DNA of 64,000 bases from Planctomycetota bacterium (GTDB taxonomy: Bacteria; Planctomycetota; UBA1135; GCA-002686595), in the NCBI GenBank assembly GCA_014237855.1, contig JABACD010000003.1:62001-126000 (forward strand), read 5' to 3'. Below, piece by piece: positions 4,741-57,925 of this stretch; the first letter of the stretch is position 1; each line of letters begins with the position of its first letter. The translations under genes and the position numbers were made by a program. The notes under the pieces were generated by a model, which ran no database searches, had not been told where the DNA came from, and saw nothing but the letters and a program-made list of their open reading frames with translations.

Positions 4741-5634
4741 TTGAACGACAGTCGACAAGCCCGGGTGTTGGTCACCGGTGCCGCTGGAATGCTGGGCAGC
4801 CAGGTGCTGCTCTCCATGCCCGACGGTGAAGCAGCTATTGGAACGGACCTGGTCGAGGCGCCGGGCGTGAGTGCCGTGGGCGTTGACCTTGCAGACGCTC
4901 GAGCCGTGGCCGAGCTGTTTGAGGAGCATGGGCCGTTCAGCGGCGTGATTCACTGTGCTGCCTATACGGCGGTTGACAAGGCCGAAGAGGAACCCGACCT
5001 GGCCCACCGGGTGAATGCGGAGGCTTGCGGTGTCCTGGCCGATGCGTGCGCCGAGGCCGACATCCCGATGGTGATGATCTCCACGGATTTCGTCTTCGAT
5101 GGACAGGCAGACCGACCCTATCGCGAGACCGACCCGGTGGATCCGCTCTCGGTCTACGGCAAGACCAAGCTGGAAGGCGAGCGCCTGGCTCGTGAGCGAC
5201 ATCCAGAGGGCACCCGGATCGTGCGTACCCAGTGGCTCTACGGGCCCCGGGGCAAGCACTTCCCTCGGACCATCGAAAGCCTGGCCCGCGAGCGCGATGA
5301 ACTCAAGGTGGTCTCCGACCAGATTGGCTCTCCCACCTCGACCTTGGAGCTCTCTCCGGCTCTCTGGGACGTCCTGCATGAGGGGGAGGCAGGGATCTAC
5401 CATGCGGTCTGCGAGGGAGCCTGCTCCTGGTACGAATTTGCCTGTGCGATCGTTGTTTTGTGTGGGATCGAGACCGTGAGCGTCTTGCCCTGTTCCACAG
5501 AGGAGTTCCCCCGGCCGGCGCCCCGGCCGGCCTACAGTGCCCTTGATTGCTCAAAACTCACGAACTTGAGAAAGAAGCCCCTCTCATCCTGGAGAGAGGC
5601 GCTCTCTACCTATCTCGGCAGCGAGGACCACTGA
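4741..5634 (+). CDS. rfbD: dTDP-4-dehydrorhamnose reductase
   Basis: NAD(P)H-dependent SDR that performs the last step to dTDP-L-rhamnose. GAAGMLG (13-19) binds the cofactor, STDFVFDG (114-121) supplies the catalytic Thr, and YGKTK gives Tyr139 and Lys143. The C-terminal motif RPAPRPAYSALDCSKL is typical of RmlD. The length of 297 residues is normal. The start used is a TTG at 4741: the next in-frame ATG falls inside the Rossmann loop and would delete the first strand. A GTG at residue 9 is possible but less likely. It begins 15 bases after rfbA and ends 4 bases before rfbB. The rhamnose 3,5-epimerase (rfbC) expected between the dehydratase and this enzyme is absent from the window. Confidence 0.88.
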   Translation: MNDSRQARVLVTGAAGMLGSQVLLSMPDGEAAIGTDLVEAPGVSAVGVDLADARAVAELFEEHGPFSGVIHCAAYTAVDKAEEEPDLAHRVNAEACGVLADACAEADIPMVMISTDFVFDGQADRPYRETDPVDPLSVYGKTKLEGERLARERHPEGTRIVRTQWLYGPRGKHFPRTIESLARERDELKVVSDQIGSPTSTLELSPALWDVLHEGEAGIYHAVCEGACSWYEFACAIVVLCGIETVSVLPCSTEEFPRPAPRPAYSALDCSKLTNLRKKPLSSWREALSTYLGSEDH

Positions 5635-5638
5635 CGCC

Positions 5639-6688
5639 ATGACCCCTGCAGAATCCCAAATTGCACCCATCAAGACGGTCCTGATCACCGGTGGTGCCGG
5701 CTTCATCGGGACCAATTTCGTCCACATGCTGTCGGAGCTGCGGCCGGAGTGGCGGATCGTCAACCTCGACGCTCTGACCTATGCCGGCAATCTCGAGAAT
5801 CTGACGGAGCAGGAGTCCAATCCGAACTACACCTTCGTCCATGGTGACATCCGTGAGGCCGCGGACGTCTCCCGGGCTCTGGAGCTCGCCGGAGACCCCG
5901 CCGAGCTGGGGGTGGTGCACATGGCAGCGGAGAGCCATGTGGACCGGTCCATCACGGGTGGACTTCCCTTCGTCACGACCAACGTGGTTGGTACCCAGGT
6001 CCTCTTGGATGCCTGCAGGGCTGCGGGAGTTGCCCGATTCGTGCACGTCTCCACCGACGAGGTCTACGGTTCCCTGGGGGATCAGGGATTTTTTACCGAA
6101 GAGACGCCCCTGGCTCCCAATTCACCCTATTCAGCGAGCAAGACAGGAAGTGACCTGCTGGTACGCGCTGCCTTCCATACACACGGCTTCCCGGCCTGCA
6201 TCACGCGATGCTCCAACAACTATGGGCCCTACCAGTTTCCTGAGAAGCTGCTGCCCCTGATCATCGCCAATGCCCAGGAGGACAAGCCCCTGCCGATCTA
6301 CGGAGATGGAATGTATGTCCGCGATTGGCTCTATGTCCGTGACCATGATGAGGCCATCCTGGCGGTCCTGGAGAAGGGGGCACCGGGTGAGGTCTACAAC
6401 ATCGGTGGAAATAACGAGATGCCGAATCTGGACCTTGTTCGAGCGATTTTGAAGGAACTTGGAAAGCCGGAGAGCCTGATCACCTTCGTCAAGGATCGCC
6501 CGGGGCACGATCGCCGGTACGCCATCGACGCGAGCAAGATCAAGCGTGAGCTGGGCTGGGAGCCTCGCTACACCTTCGAACAGGCGCTCCCGCTGACGAT
6601 TCGCTGGTACCAGTCACAAGGTGATTGGTTGCAGAGGCTTAGGAGCGGCGAGTACCGGGAGTACTACAGCCGTCAATACGGGGGATGA
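5639..6688 (+). CDS. rfbB: dTDP-glucose 4,6-dehydratase
   Basis: Converts dTDP-glucose to dTDP-4-keto-6-deoxyglucose. GGAGFIGTN (18-26) binds NAD. STDEVYG (138-144) has the dehydratase-specific Asp140 and Glu141, and YSASK gives Tyr164 and Lys168. The substrate-site sequence TRCSNNYGPYQFPEK is present. The 349-residue length is normal; about 12 residues precede the first strand. It follows rfbD by 4 bases. Together with rfbA and rfbD it makes an incomplete rhamnose pathway, or the first part of another dTDP-6-deoxysugar route. Confidence 0.92.
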   Translation: MTPAESQIAPIKTVLITGGAGFIGTNFVHMLSELRPEWRIVNLDALTYAGNLENLTEQESNPNYTFVHGDIREAADVSRALELAGDPAELGVVHMAAESHVDRSITGGLPFVTTNVVGTQVLLDACRAAGVARFVHVSTDEVYGSLGDQGFFTEETPLAPNSPYSASKTGSDLLVRAAFHTHGFPACITRCSNNYGPYQFPEKLLPLIIANAQEDKPLPIYGDGMYVRDWLYVRDHDEAILAVLEKGAPGEVYNIGGNNEMPNLDLVRAILKELGKPESLITFVKDRPGHDRRYAIDASKIKRELGWEPRYTFEQALPLTIRWYQSQGDWLQRLRSGEYREYYSRQYGG

Positions 6689-49065: not shown

Positions 49066-49988
49066 CCACGGCGGACCGAGCGTCGTGCCAGTGCTGAGGT
49101 CAGGTCTGCCAGGATCACCAGACCGGATCCAAAGAGAACCAGCAGCAACATCTCGTCGTAGTACTGCTTGGAGCGTGCGTCCTGGATCCAGTAGCCCAGA
49201 GAGACGACGCCGAGCATGCCGAGTACTGTCGCCTCGCGCACACATGTCTCGAAGCGATAGAAGAAGTAGAGCAGATTGCGGCCCATCGTCAGCGGAATGA
49301 GCGCGAAGACCACCAGACCACCGTGTCGCCCGCCTATTGCGGTCAGGGAGCGTACTGGGGCAGGCTCGAGGTTCTCAACGACCTCACCACCGAGGCGCGC
49401 CAGGATTCCACCATTGTGGATGGCGAGCGCGAGGACTGCCGGCCAGGCTGTGCGCGGCCCCAGCACGGCGAGCAATAGAAAGGCGAGGATGTACTCAGGC
49501 ACGGCTCGCATCAGGATGGCGAGGCCCCGAGAGGCCCGTCTTGCTGCGGTCCAGACCAGCTGCTTGCCCCTGGAGCTGTCCCTGACCTCGGGTGAGAAGG
49601 GGGCCGAGGTGGCGAAGTTACTGGCGGCCAGGATGGAGAGCGGCCAGGCGAGCACAGCGGACAAGGCGATCGCCAGGATGGAGATCTGCAAGGTGGCCAG
49701 GGTGCTGCTGGCCCCCACCTCATTCCAGATTCCATGGCCCCATGCCCAGAGTCCGGAGAAGGTGAAGGGCTCGGATCGCAGGGCATGAGGCCATAGCTCT
49801 TCACGGATGAAGTTCTGGAAGTTCGTGAGGCGACGCTCGGTAAGGGAGTCTCCCAGTGCAATCTCCGGACTGGCCCAGGCGTAGAGTGTCCAGGAGGCGA
49901 GAGCCATCACGGTTCCGCGCAGCAGTCGGCTCCGTGGGCGAGCACGCCTGAGGGCCTCGACTTGGGTTCGGCGACTTGAGCTGTTCAT
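49062..49988 (-). CDS. phnE: PhnE-type ABC transporter permease (second)
   Basis: Inner-membrane permease of 308 residues with about six membrane segments, the last gene of a four-gene importer operon. The coupling-loop region AIHNGGILARLGGEVVENLEPAP corresponds to the EAA motif of PhnE proteins, and the later YRFETCVREATVLGMLGVVSLGYWI matches their C-terminal core. The ATG overlaps the stop of the first permease by four bases. Two PhnE proteins probably form a heterodimer. It overlaps the 3' end of the DUF1579 gene by four bases. The symbol denotes the family; the substrate is uncertain. Confidence 0.82.
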   Translation of the reverse strand: MNSSSRRTQVEALRRARPRSRLLRGTVMALASWTLYAWASPEIALGDSLTERRLTNFQNFIREELWPHALRSEPFTFSGLWAWGHGIWNEVGASSTLATLQISILAIALSAVLAWPLSILAASNFATSAPFSPEVRDSSRGKQLVWTAARRASRGLAILMRAVPEYILAFLLLAVLGPRTAWPAVLALAIHNGGILARLGGEVVENLEPAPVRSLTAIGGRHGGLVVFALIPLTMGRNLLYFFYRFETCVREATVLGMLGVVSLGYWIQDARSKQYYDEMLLLVLFGSGLVILADLTSALARRSVRRG

Positions 49989-50881
49989 CGAATCACGACG
50001 CGCTCTCTCAAGAGACTGCTGACGAACTCAAGGACGACGACCACGAAGATCAAGGCGTAGAGGTAGCTCCAGACCTCGTGATAGTGCTGGTTGACGAAGG
50101 CCAGCTTCACGAAGTAGCCGAGGGTCGGGAATCCGAAGAAACCCAACACGGCAGAGGAGCGCACCGCGCACTCCAGACGATAGAAGGTGTAGGCCGCCAT
50201 GTCGGGAAGAGCTCGCGGCATCAGGCCAAATAGGAAGACCTGCAGGCTTGTGGCCCCGGTGTCATGCAACTGCGCCGCGCTGTCACGGGGAGCCTCATCG
50301 AGCATCTCCGAGAACACCTTCGCCAGGGTGCCGCCGTAGGGGATTGCAATGGCCCACACGGCGCTGAATGAGTTCAGGCCTAGCGCTGCCAGCAAGAGCA
50401 CGGCCCAGAGTAGTTCATGGATGGAGCGCATGAACGCGATCAAGGCTCTCAGGAAGACGAAGGCCCCTGAGCGCCCCAGACGCCCAATCCAGCGTCGGCT
50501 CCAGGAAGAAGCGGGGCTCGACTCTCGCCACCAGGCGGTGGAAGTCAGAACTCCGAGGGGGAGTCCGATGGCCAGGGCCAGACTCATTCCCGTGGCAGCG
50601 AAGATCAGGGTGCGTCTCAGGGCGTCGAGCACCTTTGCCCACAGGGGTGCTGTTCCGGCGGGAACCTGGCTCTCATAGTCGAGAGCTGGAGTCAGGCCAG
50701 CGGCGAGGAACTCCTCGAGAATCTCGATGCCGTTTCCGCTGGGGATCAGTTGGGCGGGGCTGGTGCCCAGGCCCAGGGCAGCCCAGATGGCTGCGCAGAC
50801 AATTCCAAGCATCCACCAGCGTCGACGCCCCGAGAGGATTCGTAGGGGGTGGACGTCAGACAGCCGGGCCTCATTCTTCAT
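49985..50881 (-). CDS. phnE: PhnE-type ABC transporter permease (first)
   Basis: Inner-membrane permease of 298 residues with about six membrane segments. A periplasmic segment of about 45 residues follows TM1. The EAA-type coupling loop reads AIPYGGTLAKVFSEMLDEAP, and the C-terminal core YRLECAVRSSAVLGFFGFPTLGYF is typical of PhnE. Its start overlaps the ATPase stop by 11 bases and its stop overlaps the second permease. Paired PhnE genes occur in phosphonate, phosphite and related oxyanion importers. Confidence 0.85.
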   Translation of the reverse strand: MKNEARLSDVHPLRILSGRRRWWMLGIVCAAIWAALGLGTSPAQLIPSGNGIEILEEFLAAGLTPALDYESQVPAGTAPLWAKVLDALRRTLIFAATGMSLALAIGLPLGVLTSTAWWRESSPASSWSRRWIGRLGRSGAFVFLRALIAFMRSIHELLWAVLLLAALGLNSFSAVWAIAIPYGGTLAKVFSEMLDEAPRDSAAQLHDTGATSLQVFLFGLMPRALPDMAAYTFYRLECAVRSSAVLGFFGFPTLGYFVKLAFVNQHYHEVWSYLYALIFVVVVLEFVSSLLRERVVIR

Positions 50882-51653
50882 GAAGCCCCAGGCTTGGCTT
50901 GAGACCGTAGAGAGCTTCTATCTCGTGGTCCTCAATCTCAGAGGTGACTCGATCGAACTGGATGCGGCCATCACGCAGACCTATCAGCCGCGGAATCATC
51001 TCACGGGCCAGGCCGATGTCGTGCAGGCTGAGCACAAGGGTCAGTCCTTGGCTTCTTGCAAGCTGGACGAGGATGAGAAGGGTCTCCCTGGCTCGAGCCG
51101 GATCAAGCGCAGAGAGCGGTTCATCCGCAAGCAGTGCGCCTGGTGACTGGTACAAGGCTCGCGCGATGGCGACTCGTTGCTGCTCTCCGCCGGAGAGAGA
51201 ATCCACCCGTTGAAAGAGCTTCTCCTCGATGCCAAGGCTCTCGAGCAGCTCATGCACCTCGTCCAGTTCTGCAGCACGTTGATGAAGCATGGCTCTCAGC
51301 GCTCCGAGAGTCCCCATCCTGGCGATGCGCCCGGCAATCACGTTCTGGATGACACGCAGATTTGGAATCAGGCCGAAGCTCTGTGGGACGAATCCGATCT
51401 GGCTACGAAGCTCCCGAAGACCTGCGGTCGGCAGGGTCTTCAGGTCCTGATCCTGCACCAGGACGCTGCCCTCCGCGCTGGGCAGGGAGCCGTTCAGCAT
51501 CCTCAGGACACTCGTCTTGCCGGCCCCACTGGGGCCAACAAGTGCCACGATCTCTCCCGGTTCAATCCTGAAGCTGAGCCCCTCGAGGACCGCCGGTCCA
51601 TCGAAGTCGAGGCTCACCTCTGTGAGTGAGAAGGAGAGCGCGGAATGATTCAC
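50871..51653 (-). CDS. phnC: PhnC-type ABC transporter ATPase
   Basis: ATP-binding subunit of 260 residues. Walker A GPSGAGKTS is near residue 39, the Q-loop is in IGFVPQSFGL, the ABC signature is LSGGEQQR, and Walker B is GALLADEPLSALDP. The order and the string NVIAGRIARMGTLGALR are typical of PhnC-type ATPases. It starts 5 bases after the binding-protein gene and overlaps the first permease. Confidence 0.9.
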   Translation of the reverse strand: MNHSALSFSLTEVSLDFDGPAVLEGLSFRIEPGEIVALVGPSGAGKTSVLRMLNGSLPSAEGSVLVQDQDLKTLPTAGLRELRSQIGFVPQSFGLIPNLRVIQNVIAGRIARMGTLGALRAMLHQRAAELDEVHELLESLGIEEKLFQRVDSLSGGEQQRVAIARALYQSPGALLADEPLSALDPARARETLLILVQLARSQGLTLVLSLHDIGLAREMIPRLIGLRDGRIQFDRVTSEIEDHEIEALYGLKPSLGLHEE

Positions 51654-51658
51654 TTCCC

Positions 51659-52546
51659 TCAGCGAACCAGACCAAGCTGACGGGCGAGGTCTTCCAGGGG
51701 CTTGAACTCCTCGTTGCTGGCGTCGATCAAGCCCTCCTCCCTCATCATCGCTCCGAGCAGGACGGGGTCACCCATTTTGGTAAGGGTCTTCTGGACCCTG
51801 TCCGTGAAGCCCTTGCCGTACCGGATATCAAGGGCCGGGTGCGAGTTCCAGGAGTAGTCCGGGTAGGGAGGTGTGATCCAGATGATGCGGCAGACCTCCG
51901 GGTCGATCTTTCCCTCCTTGACTCGGGTCTCGTAGGTCTTGTAGCTGAGTACGCCTGCGTCAAAGCTTCCACTCTGGACTAGCTGCCAGGTCTGGTCGTG
52001 ACTGCCGGAAAAATTCATCTCCGAACCAAAGTACTCGGCTGGAGTCTTTCCAGTCGCCTTGCGAATGAAGTACTCGGGCATCAAGCGGCCAGAGGTGGAA
52101 GAGTCTGAGCCAAAGGTGAAGCTATGCTTGTTCAGGCCCTCGGGAAATGACTCACTTGCTTCAAGGCCGCTATCTGCATTGGCGATGAAGTAGGACTTGT
52201 ACTTGGGATCGATCTTGCCCTGGGCGATTGCCCGAGCTCCAGGGACTGCTGCGCGTGCGCGTACGCCAGTCAGACCACCGAACCAGGAGAGATGCACGTC
52301 ACCGTTCTTGAAGGCCTCAACCGAAGCACCATAGTCAGCAACATGGACGTACTCGAAGGGGACGCCTAGCTCGGCCGAGAGGTAGTCGGCAACGGCACCG
52401 AACTTCTCGATCATCTCGGTCGTGTTTTCGCCAGGAATGGCGGTAAACCGGATGGTGGCGTCACCACCCCGTACATCGGAAGTGCATGCGGCGGCCAGGA
52501 GCGCGAGTAGCGGCAAGCACAAGGCCCGGATGGTCTTGTTCGTCAT
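51659..52546 (-). CDS. phnD: PhnD-family substrate-binding protein of an oxyanion importer
   Basis: Periplasmic binding protein of 295 residues; the signal ends LLAAACTSD and may be lipidated. The PhnD fold is shown by FTAIPGENTTEM, VADYGASVEAFKNGDVHLSWFGG, FIANADSGL, FGSDSSTSGRLMP and SGSHDQTWQLV. The Ser-Ser-Thr-Ser-Gly run binds the anion's phospho group in relatives. The W-F-G-G-L-T stretch and the sequence around it also resemble the binding proteins annotated as putative selenate carriers, so phosphonate, phosphite, phosphate or selenate-type anions are all possible. It is the first gene of the importer operon and diverges from a molybdenum hydroxylase. Confidence 0.82.
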   Translation of the reverse strand: MTNKTIRALCLPLLALLAAACTSDVRGGDATIRFTAIPGENTTEMIEKFGAVADYLSAELGVPFEYVHVADYGASVEAFKNGDVHLSWFGGLTGVRARAAVPGARAIAQGKIDPKYKSYFIANADSGLEASESFPEGLNKHSFTFGSDSSTSGRLMPEYFIRKATGKTPAEYFGSEMNFSGSHDQTWQLVQSGSFDAGVLSYKTYETRVKEGKIDPEVCRIIWITPPYPDYSWNSHPALDIRYGKGFTDRVQKTLTKMGDPVLLGAMMREEGLIDASNEEFKPLEDLARQLGLVR

Positions 52547-52686: not shown

Positions 52687-52794
52687 ACCCCACATGCTGT
52701 TATGAGCGGCCCTGAGCACCTAAGATGGGCGTATGACTCACTTGGTGCTGCACCAGCAGGTCCAGGATTCCCAAGCCCGTCTCCCTCCAATTCG

Positions 52795-53472
52795 ATGACC
52801 AGAGACCACTCTTCAGACCCCGAGCCCAAGAGCCTCAGCCGACGCTCATTTCTCAAGGGCGCAGGTGGCGCAGCTGCTAGCGGCGTGTTCGTCGGTGAAC
52901 TCGCTACTGGAGCGAAGCCGGTTGAGCCCACCAGATGCCTTTCTTCCGAAGAGACACTCGAGGGAGATGTGGAGGTCACGTTCCATCTGAACGGTGAGAG
53001 CATCGCGGTAACAGTTGAACCTCGCACAACCTTGTTGAGCGCCATGCGCGATCGCATCGGCCATACCGCGGCCAAGTCAGTCTGCGAGCAGGGAAACTGC
53101 GGCGCCTGCACTGTCTTGCTCGACGACGAGCCCGTCTACTCTTGCCTGACTCTGGCGGTGAAAGCTGACGGTCGTGAGGTGCGGACTGCTGGTGGTCTGG
53201 CCGAGGGGGGAGAGCTGAGTCCGGTACAGGCCGCCATGGTAGATCGTGATGGCATGATGTGCGGCTTCTGCACACCTGGGCTTGTGATGTCAGTGACGGC
53301 CTGTCTCGAGAAGAACCCACGAGCCGACGAGGCCGAAGTGCGCCAGGCATGTTCGGGCAACCTCTGTCGCTGTGGCACCTACCCACATGTATTTCAGGCA
53401 GCTCTGGACGCTGGTCGCAAGATGGTCGCCAGCAGTAACTCAGGCAGCGGCTCCGCAGGGGGTGGGCGATGA
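52795..53472 (+). CDS. Molybdenum hydroxylase 2Fe-2S subunit with Tat signal
   Basis: Small iron-sulfur subunit of the xanthine dehydrogenase/aldehyde oxidoreductase family, 225 residues from ATG 52795; an open frame reaches back to 52702 but only adds Pro/Ser-rich sequence before the signal. The N-terminus has a twin-arginine signal, SRRSFLKGAGG (Arg16-Arg17), so the folded complex is probably exported. The plant-type 2Fe-2S cluster uses Cys97, 102, 105 and 117. The second cluster uses Cys156, 159, 191 and 193 (CGFC and CRC). This layout matches periplasmic PaoA-type enzymes. The stop overlaps the large subunit start as ATGA. Confidence 0.92.
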   Translation: MTRDHSSDPEPKSLSRRSFLKGAGGAAASGVFVGELATGAKPVEPTRCLSSEETLEGDVEVTFHLNGESIAVTVEPRTTLLSAMRDRIGHTAAKSVCEQGNCGACTVLLDDEPVYSCLTLAVKADGREVRTAGGLAEGGELSPVQAAMVDRDGMMCGFCTPGLVMSVTACLEKNPRADEAEVRQACSGNLCRCGTYPHVFQAALDAGRKMVASSNSGSGSAGGGR

Positions 53473-55634
53473 GTCTCCAGCCCAAGAAGAACACCAAGGA
53501 CGGACAGCCGACCTGGGGTGAGCGTGATCGGCTCTCGGTCCTCAACACGGACACGCGGCGCTTGAGTGCGGGAGCAAAGGTGAGTGGTGAGGCACTGTAC
53601 AGCATGGATCAGCGCCCGGAGGGCATGCTGTTTGGTCGCCTGGTCTGTGTTCCTGTGGCCACCGCGGAGTTCACCCTGGACCTCGAACCGGCCCTCGCCA
53701 TGGATGGAGTGGAGGGAGCCATTGTCTTGAGGAAAGATAAGACTCTCTACAATGGCCAGGCGGTAGCCGCTGTTGCAGCACGAACACCGGAGCTGGCTGA
53801 GGATGCGGCCCGAGCGGTAAAGCTGGAGATCAAGCCCCTGCCCTGGGCGGTAACAGCCGAGCAGGCAATGGCCGAGCGCGCCCCTCAGGTTCTTGGGCGT
53901 CGGCCCAACTACGGGCCGCGGGGGCGTGGTGACGGAACGACAGGAGACGAGGAGGAGACCATGCTGGCCCTCGAGGGGGCGGCCTACCGGGTGGAGTCCG
54001 AGTACCACGTTCCAGTTCAGCATCACTGCAGTCTCGAGACCCATGGAGTCGTGGCGGACTATGACGGTGGTGAGGAGGCGACGATCTACGCCTCGACGCA
54101 GTCGGTCTTCGGCATCCCGGGGAGCGCAGCCAGGGAGATGGACCTCAGCAGGAAGAACGTCCGCTGTGTGGTGGAGCACATGGGGGGCGGCTTTGGCTCG
54201 AAGTTCTCCATGGACGTTGCGGGCAAGGCTGCCTGTGCTCTTGCGAAGGAGACGGGCAGACCGGTCTACGTCTTCAATGACCGTGAGCAGGAATTTCAGA
54301 CCTCAGGAAACCGCTCGGGCTCGACTCAGCGGATCCAGGCGGGCGTGGACGAAGAAGGCAAGCTGGTCGCGATGCACTCGGAGATGGAGAAGCTCGGTGG
54401 TCTGGGCCCGGGGCCCGGTACACGCCAGCCCTACATCTACGATGTGGCCGAGTCTTTCACTCGGGAGCACTCGATCCACACCAACACGGATGCCAGTCGC
54501 GCGATGCGTGCCCCCGGTCATCCGCAGGTGTCCTTTGCGATGGAATCCACCATTGACCAGCTGGCCTACGAGGCCGGGATCGATCTGGTCGAGTTTCGCA
54601 AGTTGAATCTCTCTGACCCGGTCTACCACCGACAGCTTGATCGAGTGGCCAGGGAGATCGGCTGGGCCGATCATCCGCACAAGTCCGCTCCGGGAACCGG
54701 CGATGGCTGGACGGCCGAAGGCATCGGTTTCGGGGTGACGATCTGGGGAGGCGGCGGCTACGCGGGCTGCGGTGCGAATGTTCGCATCGAGCGCGATGGC
54801 GGTGTGATCTCCTCCATCGGCGTACAGGACCTGGGAACGGGGGTGCGCACCCTCGTGGCTATGATTCCGGCGGAGGAATTCGGCCTGACGGTTGAGGACG
54901 TCGATGCGCGCATCGGCGACTCCCATCTACCGCAGGGTGTCAGTTCAGGCGGAAGCGTGACCACCGGCTCAGTCTCCCCCGTGGTGAAGTCCGCTGCATG
55001 GAACGCACGCCTTGCCTTTGCGGAGCATCTGGCACCGATCCTGAGCTGCGAGCCAGGGAATGTGACCTTCGCTGACGGCAAGGTCTTCGACAGGGCTTCT
55101 CCCGATCGCGGACTCTCCTGGCAGGACGCCTGCGCTGCACTTCCAACCGAGGGCCTCACGGCCAATGGTGAGTTCGTTGACGACCTCCAGGCCAGTGGGG
55201 TGCATGGTGCGCAGGCGGCACGTGTCCGTGTCGACCTGAAGACCGGGCAACTGACCGTGCTCAAGATGGTTGCGATTCAGGACAGCGGTCTGGTGCTCAA
55301 TCCACTCACCTGGCGCAGCCAGGTGAACGGCGCGATGATCCAGGCCCTGGGCCAGGCACTCCTCGAGGAGCGTTGTATGGATCCTGACCTCGGCCTTCAG
55401 ATCAACCCGAACTTCGGAGACTACAAGATTCCCGGCTCGCTCGAGATCCCTGAGCTGGTTGCGATCATCGATGAAGAAGATACGCGTCAGGCAGTGATCG
55501 GTGTGGGGGAGCCACCTGTCATACCCGGTGTCGGCGCCATCGCCAATGCGCTGCAAAATGCGTGCGATGTACGAATCACCTCATTGCCCCTCACTCCAGA
55601 TAAAATCCTTTCGGCCATCGCCTCTCAAAGTTAG
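53469..55634 (+). CDS. Molybdenum hydroxylase large (molybdopterin) subunit
   Basis: Catalytic subunit of 721 residues that binds molybdopterin cytosine dinucleotide and hydroxylates aldehydes or N-heterocycles. The family pieces are clear: SGEALYSMDQ at the start, HMGGGFGSK for cofactor binding, AMRAPGHPQ for the substrate-side Arg, SSGGSVTTGSV, and GVGEPP with the catalytic Glu681. It has no signal of its own and would be exported together with the Tat subunit. It follows that subunit with a four-base overlap and touches the FAD gene with no gap. The substrate is unknown. No XdhC or MocA maturation gene lies in the window. Confidence 0.92.
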   Translation: MSLQPKKNTKDGQPTWGERDRLSVLNTDTRRLSAGAKVSGEALYSMDQRPEGMLFGRLVCVPVATAEFTLDLEPALAMDGVEGAIVLRKDKTLYNGQAVAAVAARTPELAEDAARAVKLEIKPLPWAVTAEQAMAERAPQVLGRRPNYGPRGRGDGTTGDEEETMLALEGAAYRVESEYHVPVQHHCSLETHGVVADYDGGEEATIYASTQSVFGIPGSAAREMDLSRKNVRCVVEHMGGGFGSKFSMDVAGKAACALAKETGRPVYVFNDREQEFQTSGNRSGSTQRIQAGVDEEGKLVAMHSEMEKLGGLGPGPGTRQPYIYDVAESFTREHSIHTNTDASRAMRAPGHPQVSFAMESTIDQLAYEAGIDLVEFRKLNLSDPVYHRQLDRVAREIGWADHPHKSAPGTGDGWTAEGIGFGVTIWGGGGYAGCGANVRIERDGGVISSIGVQDLGTGVRTLVAMIPAEEFGLTVEDVDARIGDSHLPQGVSSGGSVTTGSVSPVVKSAAWNARLAFAEHLAPILSCEPGNVTFADGKVFDRASPDRGLSWQDACAALPTEGLTANGEFVDDLQASGVHGAQAARVRVDLKTGQLTVLKMVAIQDSGLVLNPLTWRSQVNGAMIQALGQALLEERCMDPDLGLQINPNFGDYKIPGSLEIPELVAIIDEEDTRQAVIGVGEPPVIPGVGAIANALQNACDVRITSLPLTPDKILSAIASQS

Positions 55635-56639
55635 ATGAAGACGTTCAAGATCCATCGTCCCAAGACGGTCGAGCAGGCCACCGGGCTCTTACCCTCGCGT
55701 CGGGGTCCGGCCGAGATCGACGAGGCGCGGCCCATGGCCGGTGGTCAGGATCTCCTGACTGAGATGAAGTCCTACCTGGTTCAGCCCGAGTCAGTCGTCG
55801 ATCTCGGTGCGGTTGCCGAACTCGAGGAGTACGAGGTGGGGGCTTCCCTGCGACTCGGCGCTCTGACCACGCTGGCAAGGATTGCATCTGACACCGAGAT
55901 TGGAGCGCGCTGGACCGCCCTGGCTGAGGCTGCAGCATCCGTGGCGAGTCCACAGATCCGCACTCAGGCAACGCTGGGCGGAAACCTCTGCCAGCGACCT
56001 CGATGCTGGTACTTCCGGCACGAGGATGCTGTCTGTATCAAGAAGGGTGGCTCTGAGTGCTTTGCCGAGAGTGGGCTCTCCAAGTACAACGCGATCCTGG
56101 GGGGTGGGCCCTCCTACATCGTGCACCCCTCTGATTGTGCGACCGCCCTGGTCTGCCTCGATGCCGAGGTAACCCGTAGCACCAAGCGAGGCGAGAGGAC
56201 TCAACCACTCGAGGAGTTCTTCACGCTGCCCTCGGAGGGCAGCGTCATGCGAGAGAACGTGCTCAAGGCTGATGAGCTGCTCCTCAAGATCGAGGTGCCG
56301 GCCCTACCCGAGGGCTGGAAGAGCACCTATCTCAAGTTCAAGGAGCGCGCCTCCTATGACTTCGCGCTCTGTGCGGTGGCGCTCTCCGCCAAGCTCGAGG
56401 GAGGCAAGATCGAAGACGCACGTCTGGTCCTGGGCGCGGTCGCGCCGATCCCGTGGCGCGCCAGGGCTGCTGAGGAATTCCTGGCCGGTAAGCAGAGCAC
56501 TCCCGAGGTCTGGGAGAAGGCGGGAGAGCTGGCCATGGAGGAAGCAGAGCCGCTCGCGGACAATGCCTTCAAGGTGCCCCTGGCTCAGGGGCTGATTCAG
56601 AAGGCCTTCAAGTCGCTGACCGATGGAGGTGCCAAGTGA
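55635..56639 (+). CDS. Molybdenum hydroxylase FAD subunit with 4Fe-4S loop
   Basis: Flavin-binding subunit of 334 residues in the vanillyl-alcohol oxidase fold. MAGGQDLLTEMK (34-45) and TLGGNL (113-118) bind FAD. Four Cys (119, 124, 134 and 142) lie in an insert of the kind that holds a 4Fe-4S cluster in PaoB and 4-hydroxybenzoyl-CoA reductase. The C-terminal CO-dehydrogenase-flavoprotein-type domain starts near residue 215. The ATG follows the large-subunit stop directly. The gene order (2Fe-2S, Mo, FAD) differs from the paoABC order. Its stop overlaps a small Cys-rich ORF as GTGA. Confidence 0.9.
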   Translation: MKTFKIHRPKTVEQATGLLPSRRGPAEIDEARPMAGGQDLLTEMKSYLVQPESVVDLGAVAELEEYEVGASLRLGALTTLARIASDTEIGARWTALAEAAASVASPQIRTQATLGGNLCQRPRCWYFRHEDAVCIKKGGSECFAESGLSKYNAILGGGPSYIVHPSDCATALVCLDAEVTRSTKRGERTQPLEEFFTLPSEGSVMRENVLKADELLLKIEVPALPEGWKSTYLKFKERASYDFALCAVALSAKLEGGKIEDARLVLGAVAPIPWRARAAEEFLAGKQSTPEVWEKAGELAMEEAEPLADNAFKVPLAQGLIQKAFKSLTDGGAK

Positions 56640-56860
56640 GTTCCTTCGAGAGAATCCAGCTCAGCCCCTACTGCGTGCATTTGAAGAGCAAGAAGCTGGT
56701 CTTCCAGCCCCGTCCTCCTGTGAGTGACGAGGACATCCTCGATGGGAGCGGCCACACCTGGTGTCAGCAGACTCAGGAGGTCGTTGGGGAGGACGGAGAG
56801 CCCAGTGATCCGAGGGAGTGTCAAAAGGGGCGCAGCTGTTTCTGCTCCTACAGCGACTGA
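56636..56860 (+). CDS. Small Cys-rich protein coupled to the Mo-hydroxylase
   Basis: I do not recognise this 74-residue protein. It starts at a GTG that overlaps the FAD-subunit stop by four bases, so it is translated with the complex. It has five Cys (13, 43, 62, 68 and 70), with CQKGRSCFC near the C-terminus, and no signal peptide or membrane helix. The spacing suggests metal or Fe-S binding. It could be a maturation factor, an electron carrier or a small extra subunit. The coding call rests on the tight coupling and codon use like its neighbours. Confidence 0.7.
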   Translation: MSSFERIQLSPYCVHLKSKKLVFQPRPPVSDEDILDGSGHTWCQQTQEVVGEDGEPSDPRECQKGRSCFCSYSD

Positions 56861-56959: not shown

Positions 56960-57925
56960 CTAGTTACCGGAGAGGGTCTTGGGCAAGAGGCTGCCATTGA
57001 ACTGCTCCCCAATCGTGAAGGGCAGCGAGGCTGAACTCAAGCGGCCAACCTCGACCATGATTGCCAGCATCGCCGGATTCGTGATCGACGTTGTTGTGGA
57101 TGAGGCAACCGAGCCGTCAATCTGGAACCAGCCCGTCTCCATCAGCGGAAAGCCCTGGACCTCGTTCGGATCGTGATTGGTGGAGTTGTAGAGGAACGAC
57201 TGGCTGAAGACACCTGAGATGTCGAGCAGGCTGACTCGCTCCCAGCAATCAAAAGAGTGCTGTGCGCTGAACACCTCCTCGTTGTCGTTGTAAATCAGGA
57301 AGTTGGCGCTGGTGTTGAACTTGGTACCCGTCAGGCCGATGAATATCAGCTCAGCCCTCGGCATGCCCTGACCAGGGATTTGACCAAAGAAGCGAGGGAT
57401 GGCAATGAGATCGGGGGTCGTGCCGTACTCGACACCATCAAGGTCGGCGTTACCATCGCCATTCAAATCGGTGGGGTTTCCCTCGCCAGTTTGGCCTTCA
57501 TAGACCAGTGCGTTGACCTGATACTCGCTCGAGGTCCAGCCGTCAAAGGTCAGCTCCGTTCCGATGAGATAGTCAAAGTCCGTTGCTGAGGGTGAGGCCA
57601 TGCCGCGTGCGTAAGCGAAGCAATAGCCGCGGTTCTCGTTTGGTGAGGCGCTCGAACTCAGGAAGGTGATCGTGTCCAGAGGCGTCAGGGTTTGCCAGGC
57701 ATCAGTCTTCAGGCAGCTCTCTTCGTCTACCCAGTTGAAGTGGACCCTGATTCCCTCGTCTGGGTTGACATTCGTGACGGTCAGAAAGGTATATGAACCC
57801 GGCCGCGAGTCGAATTCTGGGAAGATCAGCAGGCTCCCAGGGTCATTGCGCTCGGAGTGAGCGGCGGGCAGGAGCACACCAATAAGAGAGACCACAGTGA
57901 AGAGGACCTTGAGAGGGAGATTCAT
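56960..57925 (-). CDS. Secreted protein with dockerin-like calcium loop
   Basis: I do not recognise this 321-residue protein as a whole. A clear signal peptide (cleavage near AAHSE) precedes a beta-rich, Asn/Ser/Thr-rich mature part with three Cys (in EESCLKT, RGYCFAYA and SFDCWER). The segment DLNGDGNADLDGVEYG (about 153-168) looks like a single EF-hand or dockerin-type calcium loop. There is no PEP-CTERM or LPXTG-type tail. It may be an extracellular or cell-surface protein. It diverges from lon across 195 bases (57926-58120). Confidence 0.72.
   Translation of the reverse strand: MNLPLKVLFTVVSLIGVLLPAAHSERNDPGSLLIFPEFDSRPGSYTFLTVTNVNPDEGIRVHFNWVDEESCLKTDAWQTLTPLDTITFLSSSASPNENRGYCFAYARGMASPSATDFDYLIGTELTFDGWTSSEYQVNALVYEGQTGEGNPTDLNGDGNADLDGVEYGTTPDLIAIPRFFGQIPGQGMPRAELIFIGLTGTKFNTSANFLIYNDNEEVFSAQHSFDCWERVSLLDISGVFSQSFLYNSTNHDPNEVQGFPLMETGWFQIDGSVASSTTTSITNPAMLAIMVEVGRLSSASLPFTIGEQFNGSLLPKTLSGN

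Follow-up and report, generated by a model that had tools for sequence, protein, structure and literature searches.

In this work, we found that a small cysteine-rich gene at the end of a molybdenum hydroxylase (Mo-hydroxylase) operon is real, and that it represents a conserved family with both operonic and phyletic coupling to a class of Mo-hydroxylases that carry a twin-arginine (Tat) signal. The gene lies in a 64,000-nucleotide stretch of a Planctomycetota contig (JABACD010000003.1; hereafter, the window) and is the fourth and last in a run of genes for the Fe-S, Mo, FAD, and small proteins (Table 1). The occurrence of this widespread and undescribed family behind Mo enzymes that look exported hints that these enzymes have an additional component, or an aid to their assembly, that has been overlooked. 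As the best available explanation, we tentatively favor a co-exported fourth subunit, bearing a metal site, of a periplasmic PaoABC-like Mo-hydroxylase.

Table 1. Features of the Mo-hydroxylase operon and of the small gene, in window positions.
Feature	Position	Strand	Basis or remark
Fe-S subunit, PaoA-like, two [2Fe-2S]	52795..53472	+	Fer2, Fer2_2, TAT_signal
Twin-arginine motif SRRSFL, Fe-S subunit	52837..52854	+	Pfam TAT_signal and TIGR01409 above cut-off
Molybdopterin-binding subunit, PaoC-like, catalytic Glu in GVGEPP	53469..55634	+	
FAD subunit, PaoB/4-hydroxybenzoyl-CoA reductase beta type, Cys-bearing insertion loop	55635..56639	+	
FAD-subunit Cys loop: C119, C124, C134, C142	55989..56060	+	
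Shine-Dalgarno-like GGAGGT	56625..56630	+	5 nt before the small-gene GTG; read directly
Small Cys-rich protein, 74 aa	56636..56860	+	ORF reading, homologs, dN/dS
Cys13 codon, invariant; motif C-x2-L-x2-K	56672..56674	+	133/133 sequences
W42-Cys43 codons; Cys invariant, Trp 115/133	56759..56764	+	
Cys62 codon, invariant	56819..56821	+	
R66-x-Cys68 codons, invariant	56831..56839	+	

Position and sequence of the small gene

The first-pass annotation described a 74-residue open reading frame with five Cys that starts inside the stop codon of the FAD subunit. This reading was confirmed: the GTG start codon and the FAD-subunit stop codon (TGA) overlap as GTGA (56636-56639), and a strong ribosome-binding site, GGAGGT, is found 5 nt upstream. 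The Cys residues are located at positions 13, 43, 62, 68, and 70, and a signal peptide of its own is absent from the small protein. For the Fe-S subunit at the head of the operon, the longest open reading frame begins at 52702 and the likely start is the ATG at 52795. Two neighbors outside the operon are encoded on the opposite strand. The first is a divergent ABC transporter (49985-52546) with a binding protein above the cut-off for TIGR04553 (putative selenate transport); its position is kept in locus L100, from a genome of the same genus, and it was not found in the remaining loci searched. The second, behind the operon, is a 321-aa protein (56960-57925) that has no Pfam or NCBIfam match and has a homolog near the operon in L015.

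Among the five Cys, those at 13, 43, 62, and 68 are conserved in homologs; C70 is not. Seven residues (C13, K19, C43, G51, C62, R66, and C68 in window numbering) are invariant in 133 distinct sequences, which were gathered by a pattern requiring Cys, K, G, and R, such that the invariance is partly built in; profile-based alignments made without this filter gave the same invariant positions. The invariant residues hold down to approximately 20-30% identity. W42, T46, P52, and D53 are common, and the window protein has Glu at the position of P52. The Cys spacing in the window is C-x29-C-x18-C-x5-C; the gap between the first two Cys is variable in the family (mostly 28-32 positions), and there is no conserved CxxC pair. 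The resulting motif, C-x2-L-x2-K ... WC-x2-T-x4-GPD ... C ... R-x-C, is now usable for annotation.

Searches of Pfam, NCBIfam, PHROGs, PADLOC, and PDB sequences gave no named family for the small protein (any matches were at chance level), with nothing up to E=1 in Pfam and NCBIfam, and a literature search found no paper on it. The claim made at the outset that the protein is undescribed is strongly supported. Two AlphaFold2 models were weak (pLDDT 53 and 69), and Foldseek found no usable fold match with the better, still weak, model.

Distribution and selection

Homologs are present in 38 of 61 related genomes, which is beyond chance. For the scan of genome contigs, a four-sequence alignment was used, as a broad alignment was too degenerate. 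Family members occur in 101 of 392 Planctomycetota genomes (two weak matches left out), 58 of 297 Acidobacteriota genomes, and 31 of 284 Myxococcota genomes; these counts depend on draft assemblies, and the assignment of the latter two sets to phyla follows the names of the seed loci (Acidobacteriaceae and Myxococcales).

The small gene is located directly 3' of the FAD subunit in essentially all of the ~150 loci examined across the three phyla, and every homolog with a visible upstream gene follows a FAD subunit. For those matches in the 38 related genomes that were fetched as loci, FAD adjoins the small gene and Mo precedes FAD, except for one locus that ends before FAD. FAD is also directly upstream in 46 of 48 further loci; no FAD match was seen in the other two, both of which are short. 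In locus L099, an insertion at ~5500-6290 that holds repeats and an unrelated gene, judged GxxExxY-like by eye, separates FAD from the small gene, which is still kept ~830 nt downstream. A fusion of FAD and small gene was suspected from long open frames and rejected, as the frames merely overlap; no such fusion was seen.

In close pairs, the dN/dS of the small gene is 0.02-0.14, indicating strong purifying selection on the protein. The first-pass annotation had proposed to look for homologs at the same place behind other Mo-hydroxylases and for coding conservation by dN/dS. Both were found, so neither of the outcomes that it named against its own claim (no homologs at equivalent positions and no coding conservation) occurred.

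Association with Tat-signaled Mo-hydroxylases

The partnership between the small gene and one enzyme class is well supported. Among 71 genomes of the window's family, the FAD orthologue (cut-off of at least 290 bits) is present in 52, and exactly these 52 carry the small gene. In all 51 cases in which both genes are on one contig, they are adjacent and share one strand, and 6-125 nt separate the edges of the two matches; in the 52nd genome, they are on separate contigs. In most of the remaining family genomes, a second FAD gene of more distant type is still present, without the small gene. With this co-occurrence and the conserved position, the tie to a Mo-hydroxylase that had been claimed from the window alone is now strongly supported.

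A similar pattern was found for the phylum. The FAD match scores in the 392 Planctomycetota genomes are bimodal (at least 303 bits or at most 272 bits), and both genes are present in 99 genomes, FAD only in 11, and the small gene only in two (G042 and G286). G042 has an adjacent FAD gene below the cut-off (L068). In two of the 11 genomes with FAD only, the gene is at a contig end. The remaining nine operons, including those in five genomes of one family (f69), appear to be without the small gene, and several of them show a Tat signal. In the five f69 loci (L233, L234, L235, L237, and L238), the small gene's place is taken by a conserved protein of ~118 aa with no Pfam match.

The small gene was found only beside enzyme versions that have a Tat-signaled Fe-S subunit. 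The Tat motif is present in 55 of 56 related loci; the remaining locus is truncated by the end of its contig. From this signal, the host enzyme looks exported. A 4-hydroxybenzoyl-CoA reductase (4-HBCR)-type paralogue operon is present in seven family genomes, including that of the window; it lacks the small gene, and no Tat motif was seen at the N-termini that were read. In the window's own genome, this second Mo-hydroxylase operon (L193, C24:205000-215500) has neither Tat signal nor small gene, and the Cys of its FAD loop are present.

Since nine operons of the same class are without the small gene, the protein is not strictly required. E. coli PaoABC likewise functions in its absence, such that enzymes of this type can do without it. 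All operons examined that include the small protein look exported, yet enzymes of this type do not always depend on it for export, as the Tat operons without the gene and E. coli PaoABC illustrate.

Possible functions of the small protein

The first-pass annotation suggested a maturation factor, an electron-transfer subunit, or a chaperone. The present results narrow the context of these roles to Tat-exported PaoABC-like enzymes and do not decide between a redox or structural subunit and a chaperone.

One specific version of the first role, in which the protein provides or installs the [4Fe-4S] cluster in the loop of the FAD subunit, is highly improbable. The gene directly follows the FAD subunit and the loop has the PaoB/4-HBCR pattern, both of which suit this role. 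However, conservation of the loop is uneven: in an alignment of 59 rows, C124 is present in 58, C134 and C142 in 45, and Cys at the fourth position in 38, and the window itself has C124, C134, and C142 with Ser at the fourth conserved position. In 13 rows (12 distinct loci), C124 is the sole remaining loop Cys, so no loop cluster can form in the usual way, and the small protein of these loci retains all four of its Cys. Cluster delivery to the FAD loop is largely contradicted by such loci, and the cytoplasmic 4-HBCR-type paralogue has several loop Cys and no small gene.

Ligands are also lost in the Fe-S subunit. Four Planctomycetota loci (L075, L083, L091, and L099) have none of the four Cys that make up the plant-type [2Fe-2S] center (FeS II) and keep FeS I, the Glu of the Mo subunit, and the FAD gene. 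The small protein still has all four Cys in the loci with C124 as the sole loop Cys and in those without FeS II ligands. Its Cys thus outlast the loss of both sets of ligands, which argues that they are not simply serving those clusters. A far-reaching proposal is that the protein is a four-Cys redox metalloprotein of a new type that provides the electron exit of exported Mo-hydroxylases and replaces the missing electron-wire step in the Planctomycetota lineages without FeS II; we regard this full version as clearly unlikely.

Retention of the four invariant Cys in lineages that lack Fe-S ligands, together with a presumed periplasmic residence, would also suit a small structural subunit that forms two disulfides after export and binds no metal. 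An odd number of Cys in 88 of 133 sequences means that a free thiol would be common, which speaks against this role; the Mo subunit of the window also has several non-ligand Cys, such that the argument from Cys parity is weak. Overall, we consider the disulfide-only role quite improbable.

A cytoplasmic chaperone dedicated to assembly or to export (Tat proofreading) is a more serious alternative, although we still judge it somewhat unlikely. Such a protein would bind the apo-complex or the Fe-S precursor, aid cofactor loading, and be released before translocation. The exclusive link to Tat-signaled versions, the lack of the gene in the cytoplasmic paralogue, and the missing signal peptide are consistent with this role. 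In addition, the small gene ends its operon, as does paoD, the last gene of paoABCD in E. coli, which encodes a chaperone for insertion of the molybdenum cofactor (Moco) (PMC3909100). No recurrent extra neighbor of any kind (XdhC, cytochrome, or radical-SAM genes) was found in the fetched neighborhoods, so that an XdhC/PaoD-like gene is not a conserved neighbor, though the window's own genome encodes a separate XdhC_C protein elsewhere. Nevertheless, the four invariant Cys with the invariant K and R point to a metal site more than to a signal-peptide-binding groove, several Tat-type operons are without the gene, and the sequence has no homology to named chaperone families in Pfam or NCBIfam that would place it among the Tat proofreading chaperones.

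For the fourth-subunit explanation that we favor, both the four-Cys metal site and the membership in the complex are inferred. The small protein may fold around one four-Cys metal site, either Fe-S or Zn, and would attach to the FeS-Mo-FAD complex once this is assembled in the cytoplasm, with the FAD subunit as the probable neighborhood. It would then cross the membrane with the complex as a hitchhiker, which we propose because it has no signal of its own. Outside, it may serve as the final part of the complex, either giving electrons a way out or capping the structure. Operon order, co-occurrence, the Tat link, the invariant residues, and the absence from the non-Tat paralogue suggest such a subunit. 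E. coli PaoABC offers a precedent: it is a substrate of Tat, and PaoB and PaoC, which have no signals, ride with PaoA (PMC4273604). The weak models, the lack of a fusion, and the nine operons without the gene count against it, and the last position in the operon also fits a chaperone. Evolutionary distances of the small protein correlate with those of Mo, FAD, and FeS (r of 0.70, 0.60, and 0.58, respectively); it tracks all three about equally, so the correlations carry no docking information.

With the order FeS-Mo-FAD-small recurring in three bacterial phyla, this apparently exported four-gene operon has a fourth gene without a family model in the libraries searched. If the protein is a subunit, then for a large group of exported enzymes of the xanthine oxidase family, the accepted set of three subunits leaves one out. 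A chaperone, on the other hand, would represent a new kind of Tat-linked assembly factor.

Comparison with known systems

Rubredoxin, HiPIP, and plant-type ferredoxin share small size and four invariant Cys with the small protein. However, the latter has no CxxC knuckles and no ferredoxin spacing, and it has no Pfam or PDB sequence match to these groups. The XdhC/PaoD Moco chaperones are likewise encoded beside enzymes of the XDH family, but they are much larger and belong to a different family; the small protein has no XdhC domain similarity in Pfam or NCBIfam up to E=1.

4-Hydroxybenzoyl-CoA reductase is a cytoplasmic enzyme type and is not known to have a fourth small subunit. Its beta subunit has a Cys-bearing insertion like that of the window FAD subunit (best NCBIfam match TIGR03195; PDB 1rm6), although the latter is below the equivalog cut-off and lacks the fourth conserved Cys.

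The closest comparison is E. coli PaoABC(D), a periplasmic aldehyde oxidoreductase. The gene order differs, being A-B-C-D (FeS-FAD-Mo-PaoD) in E. coli, where the fourth gene encodes a 35 kDa XdhC-type chaperone and a small Cys-rich gene is absent. The window proteins also score far below the NCBIfam equivalog cut-offs (145.7 vs. 322 bits for PaoA and 295.1 vs. 1180 bits for PaoC), and the FAD loop of the window lacks the conserved four-Cys pattern for a [4Fe-4S] cluster, unless C119 stands in for the missing Cys. Nonetheless, the window Mo subunit has its best named match in PaoC, and in both systems the Fe-S subunit alone bears a Tat signal, the Mo and FAD subunits have no signal, and the FAD loop is of the PaoB type.
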